A stretch of DNA of 64,000 nucleotides from Halogranum gelatinilyticum (GTDB lineage: Archaea; Halobacteriota; Halobacteria; Halobacteriales; Haloferacaceae): the NCBI RefSeq assembly GCF_900103715.1, contig NZ_FNHL01000003.1, forward strand, positions 1-64,000, read 5' to 3'. The translations under genes were made by a program, and so were the position numbers. The notes below the pieces were generated by a model. It worked only from the letters and a program-made list of their open reading frames with translations, ran no database searches and was not told the origin of the DNA. Of the stretch, positions 52,379 through 59,183 are shown in pieces (positions within the stretch are counted from its first letter, which is position 1; each line of letters begins with the position of its first letter).

Positions 52379-53635
52379 TCAGGGCCAGTTACCGCCTTGC
52401 GTGTAGGCCTTGGCGACGCGGTCGATGGCGACGACGTAGGCCGCCGTCCGGAAGTTCGGGAGGTCGTTGGACTCGTAGGCGTCGACGAGGTTTTCGAAGG
52501 CGTCGACGATGATGCGTTCGAGTTCGTCGTTGACGCGCTCTTCGGTCCAGTAGAACCGCTGGCGGTTCTGGACCCACTCGAAGTACGAGACCGTCACGCC
52601 GCCGGCGTTGGCGAGGATGTCCGGGAAGACGTAGACGTCGCGCTCCGTGAGGACGTCGTCGGCGTCGGGCGTCAGCGGCCCGTTCGCGGCCTCGACGATG
52701 ACGTCGGCCTCCACCTCTTTCGCGAGGTCGCCGTCGATGGCGTTTTCGAGGGCTGCGGGGACGAGTAAGTCGACGTCGAGCGTCAGGAGCTCTTCGTTCG
52801 TGAGTTCCTTCTCCGCGCCTTCGTAGCCCGTGACGCTGCCCGTCTCGGTCTTGAAGTCCTTGACCGCCTTGGGGTCGAAGCCTGCTTCCGAATAGATGCC
52901 GCCGCTGGAGTCGGAGACGGCGACGACGTTCGCGCCGAGTTCGTCGATGAGCTTGGCCGCGACCCAGCCGGCGTTGCCGTAGCCCTGGACGGCGACGCTC
53001 GCGCCCTCGATGTCCTTGCCGAGGTAGTCGAAGGCCTCGCGGGCGGTCAGCATCGTCGAGCGACCCGTCGCCTCGACACGGCCCGCACTGCCGCCGGAGT
53101 CGGGTGCTTTACCGGTGATGACGCCCGGTGCGGTGGTGTTCTCCAGCGTCTCGTAGGTGTCTTTGATCCAGTTCATCTCGCGCTGGCCGGTGTTGACGTC
53201 CGGCGCGGGGATGTCCTTGTCCTCGCCGATGAACGGCCGCAGTTCCTTGGCGAACGAGCGGGTGATGCGCTCCAGCTCGCCGTCGCTGTAGTCGGCGGGG
53301 TCGATGACGATACCGCCCTTGCCGCCGCCGTACGGGATGTCGACGACGGCGCACTTGTAGACCATCCAGCCCGAGAGCGCCTTCACCTCGTCGCGCGAGA
53401 CGTCCGGGTGGTAGCGGATGCCGCCCTTGTACGGCCCGCGGTCGCCGTTGAACTGCGAGCGGAACGCTTTGAAGACGCCGAGCGTGCCGTCGTCCATCTC
53501 GACGGAGAGGTTCGTCTCCAGCACGCGCTCGGGGTGCTTTAGACGGTCGATGACGTCCGGTGCCACGTCCAGATACGCGGCTGCGTCGTCGATCTGCTCC
53601 TGCAGGGACTCGAACGGATTTGCCTCATCCGACAT
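52379..53635 (-). CDS. gdhA: Glutamate dehydrogenase
   Basis: 418 residues, hexameric GDH family. It interconverts glutamate and 2-oxoglutarate plus ammonia. Substrate-site segments are [36 protein letters not shown] (catalytic Lys) and [10 protein letters not shown]. The dinucleotide motif is GYGNAG. A CTTAA box lies 26-30 bases upstream, so the mRNA is probably leaderless. A second GDH gene is 1.1 kb away on the same strand, with a CitE-type lyase gene between them. Confidence 0.95.
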
Positions 53636-53782: not shown

Positions 53783-54631
53783 CTACCAGACGCCCGCAGC
53801 CTCGGCTCGCTCGCGGACCCGCTCGGCCTGTGCGATGAGCGGCACGTCGATCATCTCGTCGTCGACGCGGAAGACGCCACGCCCCTCCGCTTCGGCCTCG
53901 TCGCGGGCGGCGAGCACTTTCTTCGCCCACGCGACGCGCTCGGTCTCGGGCGTGAACGCGTCGTTGATGACGTCCACCTGTGAGGGATGGATGGCCATCT
54001 TGCCGTCGTAGCCGAGCGTCAGGGCGAACTCGGTCTCCTCGCGCAGGCCCGAGGGGTCCGAGAAATCCGTGTAGACGGTGTCGACTGCGTCGACGTCCGC
54101 CGCGCTCGCCGCGAGCACGACGTGTTCGCGGGCGTAGAGCACCTCAGTTCCCTCGTCGGTTCGGACCGCGCCGACGTCGGCTGCGAGGTCCTCGGCACCG
54201 AAGACGAGCGCGTCCGTCGCACTCGCGGTGGCGATGGAGGCCGCGTTCAGCACACCGGCAGCACTCTCGACGAGCGTGAGCAGCGGGAGGTCGAAACCCG
54301 CCTGCGTCACGCGCTCTTCGACACGGACCACGTCGTCGAGACCGCTCACTTTCGGGACCATCACGGCGTCGAGTCGGAGGTCGGCGTCCAGTATCGCATC
54401 GAAGTCCGCTGCTGCCGCGTCACCAGGGTTGACCCGGACACACACCTCGGCGTCGGGGTCGAACGCAGGGTCGGAGAGCACGTCGCGGACGGCTGCCCGC
54501 GCCTCGTCCTTCCGCGACGGCGCGACGGCGTCTTCGAGGTCGAAGACGACCGTGTCGGCACCGGTCTGGGGTGCTTTTCGCATCAGCTTCAGCTGGTCAC
54601 CGGGCGAGAACATGACGCTACGTCGGGACAT
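53783..54631 (-). CDS. HpcH/HpaI-CitE family acyl-CoA lyase (beta-methylmalyl-CoA lyase candidate)
   Basis: 282 residues. CitE-type TIM barrel: RRSVMFSPGDQLKLMRKAPQ, ADTVVFDLEDAVAPSRKDEA, VCVRVNPGD, MVPKVSGLDDVVRVEE and LVFGAEDLAADVG, with the metal-binding Glu and Asp in place. In haloarchaea such enzymes split beta-methylmalyl-CoA or act with malyl-CoA. The GDH neighbours and the MaoC gene at 56258 suit the methylaspartate cycle. Citramalyl-CoA or malyl-CoA remain alternatives. Confidence 0.85.
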   Translation of the reverse strand: MSRRSVMFSPGDQLKLMRKAPQTGADTVVFDLEDAVAPSRKDEARAAVRDVLSDPAFDPDAEVCVRVNPGDAAAADFDAILDADLRLDAVMVPKVSGLDDVVRVEERVTQAGFDLPLLTLVESAAGVLNAASIATASATDALVFGAEDLAADVGAVRTDEGTEVLYAREHVVLAASAADVDAVDTVYTDFSDPSGLREETEFALTLGYDGKMAIHPSQVDVINDAFTPETERVAWAKKVLAARDEAEAEGRGVFRVDDEMIDVPLIAQAERVRERAEAAGVW

Positions 54632-54695
54632 ATCTCCTCTGTCGTCGGCGACGGGTTTGAAACCGGAGGGCGAGTGCAGAAGTACAAGTACGAAG

Positions 54696-54793: not shown

Positions 54794-56071
54794 TTACGGC
54801 CAGAGACCGCGTGCGTCGTGTGCCTCGGCGACGCGCGAGAGGGCGACGATGTAGGCGGCGTCACGCCACGTCACGTCGCGCGCCTCGTACTCCTCGCAGA
54901 CGGCGTCCCACGCCTTCAGCATCTCCGCCTCCAACTCCTCGGTGACGCGTTCGAGCGTCCACTGCCGACGGTTGATGTCCTGCAGCCACTCGAAGTACGA
55001 GACCGTCACGCCCCCGGCGTTGGCGAGGATGTCCGGCAGGACCGGAATCCCACGCTCCTCGAAGACCGCGTCGGCGGCCGTCGTCGTCGGCCCGTTCGCG
55101 CCTTCGACGATCATCCGTGCCTGCACGTCGTTGGCGTTGTCGGCCGTGAGGACGTTGCCGATAGCGGCCGGGATGAGGATGTCGACGTCGAGTTCCAAGA
55201 GATCGGAGTTCGAGAGCTTCTCCGGGGCGTCGTAGCCCGAGACCATCCCGGGAACCTCGTCGTGGCCTTCGACGTCCTTCGTGTCGAGCCCGTCGGGATC
55301 GTAGATGGCTCCGTTGACGTCGGAGACGGCGACGACCGTCGCGCCCCAGTCGTCCAGCGACCGCGCTGCGTTGGCACCGACGCTCCCGAAGCCCTGCACG
55401 GCGACGGTCGTGTCCTCGATGTCCCAGTCGTAGTAGTCGATAGCCTCGCGGGCGACGATGGCGACCGAGTGACCGGGCGATTCCTCACGCCCGTACGAGC
55501 CGCCGATGACCGGCGGCTTGCCGGTGACGACGCCCGGCTGGGTCTCGCCCTCCTGCATCGAGTAGGCGTCCATGAACCACGCCATCGTCTGGGGGTCCGT
55601 CCCCATGTCGGGTGCGGGGATATCCTTCATCGGTCCGACGACCTCTCGGAGTTCCTCGGCGAAGCGACGGGTGAGCCGCTCTTTCTCGTCGCGGCTGAGG
55701 TCCTTCGGGTTGACGACGATGCCACCCTTGCCGCCGCCGAAGGGGAGGTCCATCACGGCGCACTTCCAGGTCATCCACATCGAGAGACCGATACACTCCT
55801 CGGCGTCGACCTCGGGATGGTAGCGCAGACCGCCCTTGAACGGGCCGCGGACGCTGTCGTGCTGTGCGCGGTACCCGGTGAGGATCTCCGTGTCGCCGTC
55901 GTCGCGCTTCAGCGGAATCGACACCTGGTGGACTTTGTCGGGATGTTTGAGCCGTTCGATGGTGCCGGGGTCGACGTCGAGATGGGCCGCGGCGCGTTCG
56001 AGCTGCCGACGGGCGGTCTCGACGGCTGTCTCCTGTGCCTCGGGTTCGGATGTGCCGGTTTGTTGTGTCAT
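54794..56071 (-). CDS. Glutamate dehydrogenase, second copy
   Basis: 425 residues, same family as the gene at 52379 but clearly divergent: [50 protein letters not shown], and dinucleotide motif GFGSVG. The ATG at 56071 has a GGAGG 11 bases upstream; an in-frame ATG at 56116 would add 15 residues. A TATA-like sequence (near 56176-56181) is about 105 bases upstream, so this gene seems to have a leader. The two copies may serve opposite directions or different coenzymes. Confidence 0.94.
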
Positions 56072-56190
56072 GGGTGGGTCGTCCTCCGACTCACGGTGTG
56101 TCGCCACCGCGAGCAACTGGCCCGACTGGCCTGCGTGCCGGTCGGAGCTGTTTCCCGAGGGTTACCCGCCACGGTGTATAATTGTTCTTA

Positions 56191-56257: not shown

Positions 56258-56719
56258 ATGGCAGGACGGTACTACGAGGAGTTCGATGTCGGCGAGACCA
56301 TCGAACACGACAAGCGGCGAACCGTGAGCGAGAGCGACAACCAACGGTTCTGCGACATGACGATGAACCAGCAGCCCCTCCATCTCGACGCAGAGTTCGC
56401 TGCCGACACGCAGTTCGGCGAGCGGCTCGTCAACGGTATCTACACCCTCGCGCTCGCCGTCGGCGTCTCGATCCCCGACACGACTGAAGGGACCATCGTC
56501 GCCAATCTCTCGTACGACGATATCTCGCATCCCCATCCAGTCTACCACGGCGACACCATCCGCGCGCAGTCGACCGTGACCGACAAGCGAGAGACCTCCG
56601 ACGGCGAGCGCGGGGTCGTCACGATGCACGTCGAAGTCTTCAATCAGGACGACACGCTCGTCTGTGAGTTCGACCGGACAGTTCTCTCGTTGAAGCGCGA
56701 GAGTCGAGCGTCAGAGTAA
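56258..56719 (+). CDS. MaoC-family dehydratase/hydratase with Asn in place of catalytic Asp
   Basis: 153 residues, one hotdog-fold domain. The hydratase motif reads MTMNQQPLHLDAEFA: aligning to the family GD-x-N-P-L-H, the usual Asp is Asn37, the Asn is Gln39, and the catalytic His is His42. The end of the domain (YHGDTIRAQSTVTDKRETSD) is standard. It is divergent from the second GDH gene and close to the CitE lyase, suggesting action on a mesaconyl- or methylmalyl-CoA-like ester. Its 3' end overlaps the convergent DUF5658-like gene by 9 bases. Confidence 0.85.
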   Translation: MAGRYYEEFDVGETIEHDKRRTVSESDNQRFCDMTMNQQPLHLDAEFAADTQFGERLVNGIYTLALAVGVSIPDTTEGTIVANLSYDDISHPHPVYHGDTIRAQSTVTDKRETSDGERGVVTMHVEVFNQDDTLVCEFDRTVLSLKRESRASE

Positions 56720-57166
56720 CACGTCGGCGAGCAGGAGGCTGTTACTCGTCACTGCGACTCCCCACAGGAGAACGAGTCCGAGAGGGACGATACCACGGTG
56801 TGGCTTCGGCATCGCCCACCAGGCGAGGAGTCCAACGAGCATCGCCAACCCCTTGAGTAAGGTGAAGGTCCCAGCGAGTCCGAGCATCGGTAACAAGTAG
56901 TTGACAACCGGATTCATCTCGGCAAGTCCAACCTGAAGACCGTACGTGGTCGTCACGATGTCGAGGACGAGCGCGACCACAGCGAGCACCCACAGCGTCG
57001 CCTGATGAGCGGTGGCCAGCTCGCTGGCCTTCGAGAGCCAACCGATGGTGGTGGTTCGGGCAGCGGGGAGTCGAGGTCTGGGTAGGGTGGACAAGCGGGT
57101 CACCTCCGGGCACAGCAGTCCCCGGCTACCTGCCACTTCGGACGACTCCTCCCTTAGTAGACGCAT
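56711..57166 (-). CDS. DUF5658-like membrane protein
   Basis: 151 residues. A polar N-terminal 45 residues precede four membrane helices, with the motif LDIVTTTYGLQVGLAEMNPVV in the first helix region; this D-TT-G-E-NP pattern marks the family I recall as DUF5658. Start uncertain; ATG at 57166 has a TTAATC element about 12-17 bases upstream. Function unknown. The 3' end overlaps the MaoC gene. Confidence 0.75.
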   Translation of the reverse strand: MRLLREESSEVAGSRGLLCPEVTRLSTLPRPRLPAARTTTIGWLSKASELATAHQATLWVLAVVALVLDIVTTTYGLQVGLAEMNPVVNYLLPMLGLAGTFTLLKGLAMLVGLLAWWAMPKPHRGIVPLGLVLLWGVAVTSNSLLLADVLL

Positions 57167-57216: not shown

Positions 57217-58971
57217 CTAGAGGACGGTCCCGTGTTTCTTATCCGGCAGCGACTTCTCGACGGTCTCGTAGAACGCAAAGCGGTTGACGAGTTCCTGGCG
57301 GAGCGTGCTCGGCGGCACCACCTCGTCGATGACGACCTCGCTCGCCATCCGGTGGATGTCGATGTCGCGGCGGTACTCCTCGCGGAGTTCTTCTTCGCGT
57401 TTCGCGCGCTCCTCGGGGTCGTCGATGGCGTTCAGCTTGTTCGCGTAGACCGCGTTGATGGCCGCTTCGGGACCCATGATGCCGATCTCGCCCGACGGGA
57501 GCCCGATGACGCTCTCGGGGTCGTACGCCGGGCCGCCCATCGCATAGATGCCCGCGCCGTAGGCCTTCCGGACGACGACGGTCTGCTTTGGGACTGTTGC
57601 CGACGACGTGGCGTAGATGAACTTCTTGCCCTTCTCTAGGATGGCGTCCTTCTCGACCTGCGACCCGGCCATGAAGCCCGGCGTGTCACAGAGGTAGAGC
57701 AGCGGAATCTCGTAGGCGTCACAGGTCCAGATGAACTCCGCGGCCTTCTCTGCGGCGTCGGGGAAGATGGCTCCCGAGCGTTGGGTGGGCTGGTTGGCGA
57801 CGACGCCGACCGGGCGGCCGTCGATGCGGCAGAAGGCCGTGACGATCTCGGACCCGAAGTCGGGCTTCAACTCGAACACGGACTCGGCGTCGGCGATCCG
57901 GTCGAGCAGGTCGAAGACGTCGTAGGGGCGGTTCGGTGCCTCCGGGATGAGTTCGTCGATGCCGTCGGGCGAGTATTTCGGTGGCTTGGGTTCGGACTTC
58001 GGCGGCTTCTCGCCCGCTTTGTCGGGGAGATAGGTGACGAGTTGGGAGACGAGTTCGCGGGCGTGAGCCTCGTCGCTGGCGACGAGGTCGGCACTCCCGG
58101 AGTGTTTCGCGTGAACCTCGGGGCCACCGAGGTCCTGCATATCGATATCCTCGCCGGTGACCATCTTGACCATCCGCGGGGAGGCGATGGCCATCGCGCT
58201 CATCCCCTCAACCATGACCGTGAAGTCCGCGAAGACCGGCGTGTAGGCCGCGCCAGCGATACACGGACCGTAGAGCACGCAGATCTGTGGGACGCGCCCC
58301 GACAACATCGAGTGATTATAGTAGTATTTCCCGATTCCCTCGCGGTTGGCGAAGAAGCCGGTCTGTTCGTCGATGCGGCCGCCCGAGGAGTCCATCAGAT
58401 AGAGCACCGGCTTGCCGGTTTTCAGCGCGCGCTGCTGCATCCGCAGGAACTTCTCGACGCCGCGCTCGGCCATACTCCCCGCTTTGACGGTGAAGTCGTT
58501 GGCCATGAAGTGCAGCTCTCGGCCCTCGAACTCCGCCGCGCCAGTGATGAGTCCGTCCGTCGGCAGGCGGCTGTTCTCGTCGGCCTCGTCGACGTTCGGG
58601 GAGTTCTCGTGCCAGCCGTCGAAATGTGCGAACTTGCCGTCCTCGAACAGGATACCGTCCTCGCCGTCGCCGAACCAGAGGTCGAGTCGGTCGCGGACGA
58701 ACAGCTTACCCTGGTCGGGCAGCCGCTGTTTGTACTTCTCGGGACCGCCCGAGAGGATGTCGTCGATCTCCTCGCGGAGTGCGGCCTCCCGCTCGGTCGG
58801 GCCGAGATCGTCGTCGAGCGGATAGTCGACCTCAGGCGGTTCGGCGGTGGCCGCGGGTTCGGCGGCGTCGCCGACGTGGACCTCGATGTCGACGCCGAGA
58901 TGTTCGGCGAGCGCGCTCGCGATGGCACTGGCTTCCTCCTCGGTCGCACCGGAGCCGACGTGGACTTTCAT
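57217..58971 (-). CDS. Acyl-CoA (propionyl-CoA) carboxylase beta chain fused to epsilon-like N-terminal domain
   Basis: 584 residues. Residues about 75-584 are the two-crotonase carboxyltransferase: GGRIDEQTG, GPCIAGAAYTPVFADFTVMV, CDTPGFMAGSQVEKDAI and YGAGIYAMGGPAYDPE. It transfers carboxyl from biotin to propionyl- or acetyl-CoA. The first about 50 residues (MKVHVGSGATEEEASAIASA) resemble the small epsilon/PccX subunit, here apparently fused, followed by a Pro/Ala/Glu linker. The usual beta chain is about 515 residues. The biotin carboxylase subunit is not in the window. Probably pairs with methylmalonyl-CoA mutase at 33497 in propionyl-CoA use. Confidence 0.9.
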   Translation of the reverse strand: MKVHVGSGATEEEASAIASALAEHLGVDIEVHVGDAAEPAATAEPPEVDYPLDDDLGPTEREAALREEIDDILSGGPEKYKQRLPDQGKLFVRDRLDLWFGDGEDGILFEDGKFAHFDGWHENSPNVDEADENSRLPTDGLITGAAEFEGRELHFMANDFTVKAGSMAERGVEKFLRMQQRALKTGKPVLYLMDSSGGRIDEQTGFFANREGIGKYYYNHSMLSGRVPQICVLYGPCIAGAAYTPVFADFTVMVEGMSAMAIASPRMVKMVTGEDIDMQDLGGPEVHAKHSGSADLVASDEAHARELVSQLVTYLPDKAGEKPPKSEPKPPKYSPDGIDELIPEAPNRPYDVFDLLDRIADAESVFELKPDFGSEIVTAFCRIDGRPVGVVANQPTQRSGAIFPDAAEKAAEFIWTCDAYEIPLLYLCDTPGFMAGSQVEKDAILEKGKKFIYATSSATVPKQTVVVRKAYGAGIYAMGGPAYDPESVIGLPSGEIGIMGPEAAINAVYANKLNAIDDPEERAKREEELREEYRRDIDIHRMASEVVIDEVVPPSTLRQELVNRFAFYETVEKSLPDKKHGTVL

Positions 58972-59183
58972 GTCTCGGTGTCCGAGGGGCTATTCAAAAT
59001 TGTTTTCCATGTGGTTTCTGCCAATTCGTGTCAGATCAGTATCGACTGGCGCGGGGCGACGAGCGAGCGAACCGTGACGGAAGACTGCCGAGAGAGAACA
59101 GAACGGTCACGCACGCGACCGGCCGTTATCACCGCTGAAAATTGGCACGCGAGATACATATACTGGAGAGTGAGAGCTACCGT

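Follow-up and report, generated by a model that had tools for sequence, protein, structure and literature searches.

A haloarchaeal carboxylase beta chain with an N-terminal domain resembling one half of PccX

The window analysed here, a stretch of 64,000 nucleotides from Halogranum gelatinilyticum, contains a gene for the beta (carboxyltransferase) chain of an acyl-CoA carboxylase whose N-terminus, judged by sequence comparison, probably corresponds to half of a PccX protein and not to a whole epsilon subunit. PccX is the small subunit of haloarchaeal propionyl-CoA carboxylase (PCC) and the counterpart of the epsilon subunit. On balance we favor a reading in which this fused beta chain is part of a biotin-dependent carboxylase specific to the Halobacteria, with a PccX-derived half domain, a shared alpha chain, no need of a separate PccX, and a substrate like that of methylcrotonyl-CoA carboxylase (MCC). 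Coordinates are collected in Table 1.

Table 1. Features of the fused beta gene and its surroundings in the window, and members of the second fused-beta family in other loci.
Feature	Position	Strand	Remarks
Beta (carboxyltransferase) chain with N-terminal PccX-like half domain	57217..58971	-	584 aa
PccX-like half domain, residues 1-36	58864..58971	-	strand 2-5, helix 11-25, strand 29-33 (predicted)
Variable Pro/Ala/Glu/Asp linker, residues 37-57	58801..58863	-	short strand 41-43 predicted
Carboxyltransferase part, residues 58-584	57220..58800	-	Carboxyl_trans (PF01039) 433.7 bits against a cut-off of 22.3, residues 107-582; MCC-like insert FFANREGIGKYYYN; motif YGAGIYAMGGPAYDP
Promoter-like element CATGGAAAACAATTTTGAATA, BRE/TATA-like, conserved	58991..59011	-	TATA-like part -20 to -28 from ATG
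MaoC-type (R)-specific enoyl-CoA hydratase, RipB/Ich-like	56258..56719	+	121.7 bits, under cut-off 340
CitE-type CoA-ester lyase	53783..54634	-	citE 214.7 bits, RipC/Ccl 183.9 bits, both under cut-off
Glutamate dehydrogenase GdhB, conserved neighbour	54794..56107	-	above cut-off
Second glutamate dehydrogenase, conserved neighbour	52379..53635	-	
Second fused-beta family members	L184:8062-9771, L185:7032-8726, L186:7734-9599, L188:7088-8785		
Second fused-beta family, further members	L189:7376-9073, L190:8577-10277, L191:8197-9984, L192:6610-8331		

Gene structure and start codon

The open reading frame is real, and its product begins with MKVHVGSGATEEEASAIASALAEHLGVDIEVHVGD, followed by a linker rich in Pro, Ala, Glu and Asp and then by the Carboxyl_trans domain. 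An earlier note on this DNA had remarked on the unusual length of the chain and on a Pro/Ala/Glu linker behind the added N-terminus, and both observations hold. The ordinary PccB of the same genome (the other beta chain, C2:237483-239012) has 516 residues and aligns to the fused beta chain only from residue 60, and with the best-matching solved carboxyltransferase chains the alignment starts at about residue 61-69; the N-terminal 57 residues are an addition. The fused beta chain is 94% identical to a Halogranum counterpart.

The assigned start is credible because the initiating methionine is invariant among 45 aligned orthologs and because a conserved promoter-like element precedes the ATG. 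The end of CATGGAAAACaaTTTTGAATA lies 20 nt upstream of the ATG, and the element, which is kept among close relatives, suits a TATA/BRE and a leaderless start as its putative function. In codons 2-36 close relatives differ mostly at third codon positions, and a wrong start codon was rejected on the strength of these differences together with the invariant methionine and the upstream element. Mean pairwise identity is 68% in the helix (residues 9-25) compared to 42% in the linker. We note that the promoter-like element (CATGGAAAAC) contains an ATG of its own, which is in frame in some relatives and leads to falsely long starts (MENG...).

Relationship of the N-terminal domain to PccX

The N-terminus had been read in the earlier note as an epsilon- or PccX-like subunit. 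This stands for residues 2-28 of the half domain, which match the N-terminal half of PccX and carry the similarity, but not for the C-terminal half, which is missing. The PccX of the source genome is an 87-residue protein whose gene lies directly 3′ of pccB. With a profile built from this protein and its relatives, hhalign places residues 2-28 of the fused beta chain on PccX residues 6-32 (Prob 92.8, score 34.7, E 4e-7 as a single comparison), a matched segment of only 27 residues that is rich in Ala and Glu. The controls score well below this: the maximum among 32 other haloarchaeal families is 21.1, the reversed profile gives 9.4, and none of 100 column shuffles is as good, with a maximum of 18.6. 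When 29,093 six-frame ORFs were searched with an HMM of the N-terminal domain, PccX proteins took the first 19 places among the non-fused matches, the best score going to that of genome G317 (MQLHIPEDASDEEAAAIAAAIGAHL); this ORF set is enriched in PccX loci, although the enrichment does not force the ranking. In the reverse search, a PccX profile against the whole of genome G031, which has no pccX, the best match is the N-terminus of the fused beta chain (E 0.0025), and the comparison with PccX that had been proposed is thus significant in both directions.

At the level of single residues, conserved positions of the fused beta chain and PccX coincide without gaps (A9/A13, E13/E17, A14/A18, A16/A20, I17/I21 and H24/H28), and the N-terminal signature of PccX, a strand followed by an AxxxEAxAIxxxLxxH helix, is present in the extension. 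Neither profile comparison nor alignments revealed a counterpart in the fused beta chain of the C-terminal half of PccX (WdGeRWrFAGR...PTDaWTAAGRtDRF), and the aligned fused beta chains have no conserved Trp between the half domain and the carboxyltransferase part, whereas W47, W52 and W78 are invariant in PccX.

The ACC_epsilon profile (PF13822), which the earlier note had proposed as a check, matches none of 28 fused-beta members, and a search of residues 1-76 against Pfam and NCBIfam gave no epsilon match; the failure of PF13822 is not decisive since genuine PccX also falls below its threshold. Four Streptomyces epsilon proteins give a weak profile alignment at the same place as PccX (P 0.0025).

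Modelled alone, the N-terminal domain has a pLDDT of 92 and is predicted to fold as strand, helix, strand and short strand (Table 1); in the full-length AlphaFold model the carboxyltransferase part has a mean pLDDT of 59, too poor for placing the domain. Searches with the domain model by Foldseek and VIA-align gave no clear relative, a result that is evidence neither for a new fold nor against kinship, and PDB sequence searches with PccX and with the fused-beta N-terminus returned nothing meaningful. The domain could instead have no kinship with PccX and be a small alpha/beta unit, such as one like the end of FakA-like_C, that has grown PccX-like and serves as a dimerisation or regulatory appendage. 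The predicted strand-helix-strand-strand order, with a second strand where PccX has a run of Ala, would fit this, as would the shortness of the motif and sub-threshold FakA-like_C matches in 10 of the 28 members (best E 0.0023). We consider it unlikely nonetheless, as the PccX similarity is far above the controls and is found in both search directions, the conserved positions coincide gap-free, and both proteins belong to carboxylases that apparently use the same alpha chain.

Distribution and origin of the extension

With the first 84 residues as query, 345 of the 391 Halobacteria genomes gave a match (E <= 0.01), which is far above chance and shows that the extension is not peculiar to the source genome; a one-off fusion was rejected for this reason. 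Weak matches in G002 and G125 were set aside, that in G002 being a false positive with no carboxyltransferase, which leaves 342 genomes that also have biotin carboxylase and one genome that is 82% complete. The extension is absent from non-halobacterial archaeal carboxyltransferase homologs in a phylum-wide sample, those listed aligning from residue 56 or later, and it looks both old and specific to the class.

A second family of beta paralogs, about 52% identical, has the same N-terminal domain (Table 1), and the two families form one clade with support of 100/99. The simplest reading is one fusion event before the duplication into two paralog families, in which the N-terminal half of PccX would have been joined to a beta chain through a flexible linker. 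Genes of the second family are often found beside those for acyl-CoA dehydrogenase, enoyl-CoA hydratase-like and 3-keto acid cleavage (KCE-type) proteins.

Two individual genes depart from the common arrangement. In G009 (C1:982173-984022) the N-terminal domain and the carboxyltransferase domain are encoded by separate open frames of 209 and 646 aa, reflecting a sequencing error, a frameshift or a real split. The beta chain at L079:10001-11680 lacks the second strand, as well as the greater part of the linker, and retains the strand and helix (MKVRISDGATDEEASAIAEALAQHV), which are perhaps the minimal retained unit.

The alpha partner

The source genome has a single biotin carboxylase (alpha) gene, located in the pccB-pccX neighbourhood, and both beta chains therefore probably share this one alpha chain. 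A search for a separate pccX, as the earlier note had advised, found it retained beside the ordinary pccB, which means that in this genome the fusion exists alongside PccX and is not a genome-wide replacement. Among the 391 Halobacteria genomes, fused beta and biotin carboxylase occur together in 342 of the 343 with a fused beta, and 15 of the 16 without biotin carboxylase are also without fused beta, the exception in both counts being the 82%-complete genome (Fisher p 3.6e-14, uncorrected for kinship, with joint absence in several genera). In L183, L187 and the Natrinema plasmid L199 the fused beta gene is directly 3′ of an alpha gene, with no pccX between them.

In genome G031, which is 99% complete, genes for alpha and fused beta are present (L212:7321-9120, L213:8109-9971), and neither PccB nor PccX was found. 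PccX is missing from 10 of the 145 genomes searched, nine of which are without biotin carboxylase, the tenth being G031. In G317 (L210:7195-11080) and G359 (L211:5790-12298) pccB-pccX lies upstream of fused beta on the same strand, directly adjacent in G317, an arrangement that hints at how the fusion could arise; the alpha gene is about 90-100 kb from fused beta in both.

The carboxyltransferase part, gene neighbourhood and likely substrate

Sequence identity of the carboxyltransferase part is 39% with PccB and 32% with MCC beta. Two of its features, the insert FFANREGIGKYYYNHSMLSG and the motif YGAGIYAMGGPAYDP, resemble those of MCC (FPDRDHFGAIFYNQAQMS, FGAGNYGMCGRAYRP) and not PccB, and YGAGIYAM stands in the place of the YGGAYDVM of PccB. 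In a tree with a small reference set, the fused-beta carboxyltransferases are a clade of their own (100/99), outside both PCC/ACC and the annotated MCC beta chains and no closer to the classical MCC clade than to PCC.

Within 10 kb of fused beta, MaoC genes are present in 38 and CitE genes in 30 of 67 loci with full flanks, and in seven Natrialbaceae-type loci MaoC is directly 3′ of fused beta on the same strand; in many Halorubrum neither MaoC nor CitE was found near it. Loci with their own alpha gene have the order acyl-CoA ligase, acyl-CoA dehydrogenase, alpha and fused beta, to which L183 and L199 add an adjoining MaoC, and this order mirrors an annotated Sinorhizobium cluster of isovaleryl-CoA dehydrogenase, MCC beta, alpha, MaoC and CoA ester lyase. 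A leucine-breakdown context is thus present at fused beta, though the neighbours score under the equivalog cut-offs. In Natrialbaceae a pair of UbiD-type decarboxylase genes (L199:60-2956, also L187:331-3224) is upstream of the ligase-dehydrogenase-alpha-fused beta operon. In the window, a small membrane-protein-like ORF (56711-57166, minus strand) overlaps the end of the MaoC gene and was detected in only four full-flank relatives.

Because the MaoC and CitE-type neighbours and, in some species, the acyl-CoA dehydrogenase and own alpha match the bacterial methylcrotonyl-CoA carboxylase cluster, MCC is more likely than PCC for the fused beta chain, and a methylcrotonyl-type function is, in our estimate, somewhat favored. 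The substrate would be 3-methylcrotonyl-CoA or a similar branched acyl-CoA; once carboxylated, it would be hydrated by MaoC and cleaved by the CitE-type lyase during the breakdown of leucine or branched acids. In Mycobacterium tuberculosis, a CitE-like protein acts in leucine breakdown as an (R)-HMG-CoA lyase (PMC6689899). The lack of a classical HMG-CoA lyase was considered as an argument for such an R-route and dropped, since one is also present in the source genome.

The main competing account accepts a PccX-derived N-terminus and takes the enzyme to be a second propionyl- or acetyl-CoA carboxylase. It agrees with the position of the sole alpha gene with pccB-pccX, with a carboxyltransferase that is no more distant from PCC than from MCC, and with the location of pccB-pccX just upstream of fused beta in G317 and G359; we regard it as rather unlikely in view of the conserved MaoC/CitE/acyl-CoA dehydrogenase context, the MCC-like insert and YGAGIYAM motif, and the complete pccB-pccX-alpha set already in the genome. 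The glutamate dehydrogenases, MaoC hydratase and CitE-type lyase in the neighbourhood could also suggest the methylaspartate cycle, with its propionyl-CoA carboxylase, mesaconyl-CoA hydratase and beta-methylmalyl-CoA lyase. We consider this highly improbable, since MaoC reaches only 66/560 bits with the methylfumaryl-CoA hydratase model for haloarchaea and the lyase 66/500 bits with the haloarchaeal model for malyl-CoA lyase, and since the cluster is present in Haloferax loci too, whereas the cycle is in use in about 40% of haloarchaea (PMC5592240).

A proposed model for PccX-independent assembly

In the methylcrotonyl-type reading that we prefer, the fused beta chain would assemble with the same alpha (biotin carboxylase/carrier) chain as PccB-PccX. 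The covalent tether would make a beta-anchoring role of PccX unnecessary, and the built-in half domain would cover the task that is left over, rendering a separate PccX superfluous; the fusion may also fix the stoichiometry, as had been suggested earlier. The retained strand and helix would then act on the alpha chain itself or at its interface with beta. More tentatively, and with somewhat less than even confidence, we speculate that the tethered half-PccX replaces the separate subunit, that the fused carboxylase works without PccX and shares one alpha chain with the PccX-dependent PccB carboxylase of the same cell, and that the retained half acts on alpha while the lost Trp-rich half only anchors PccX to beta.

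The fused beta chain bears on the question of which part of epsilon or PccX does the work in tri-subunit carboxylases. It is a natural construct of long standing, found across the class, in which only the first half of PccX is kept beside a full PccX in the same genome, and it makes the roles of the parts directly testable in haloarchaea, among which Haloferax volcanii is genetically tractable; genome G031, without PccX and PccB, is a natural experiment on PccX-independence. Furthermore, haloarchaeal genes that are easily taken for a second propionyl-CoA carboxylase may instead be methylcrotonyl-type and act in leucine breakdown.

Comparison with known systems

The closest likeness is to haloarchaeal PccX, which shares with the fused beta chain the strand and the AxxxEAxAIxxx(L/V)xxH helix, gap-free from near the start codon, but is a separate protein with a Trp-rich C-terminal half. 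The actinobacterial epsilon subunits (AccE, PccE and AccE5; PF13822) similarly have a G-x-(x)-A/P-T-x-E-E start followed by a helix, but they too are separate proteins, with a C-terminal Trp motif and a weak profile match. In Streptomyces it is established that a single alpha chain serves several beta/epsilon modules (PMC13118682). Carboxylase structures that include AccE5 are available in the PDB (30hu, 9t97). The PccB/AccB beta chains share the Carboxyl_trans domain and a similar length of the carboxyltransferase part, but they have no extension, belong to a separate clade, and differ in the motifs around both presumed oxyanion holes. MCC beta chains have similar motifs (FPDRDHFGAIFYNQ and FGAGNYGMCGRAYRP in Sinorhizobium MCC beta) and a shared gene context of acyl-CoA dehydrogenase, alpha, MaoC and CoA-ester lyase, but those examined have no PccX-like domain and are the more distant in identity; the fused-beta clade stands between PCC/ACC and MCC.
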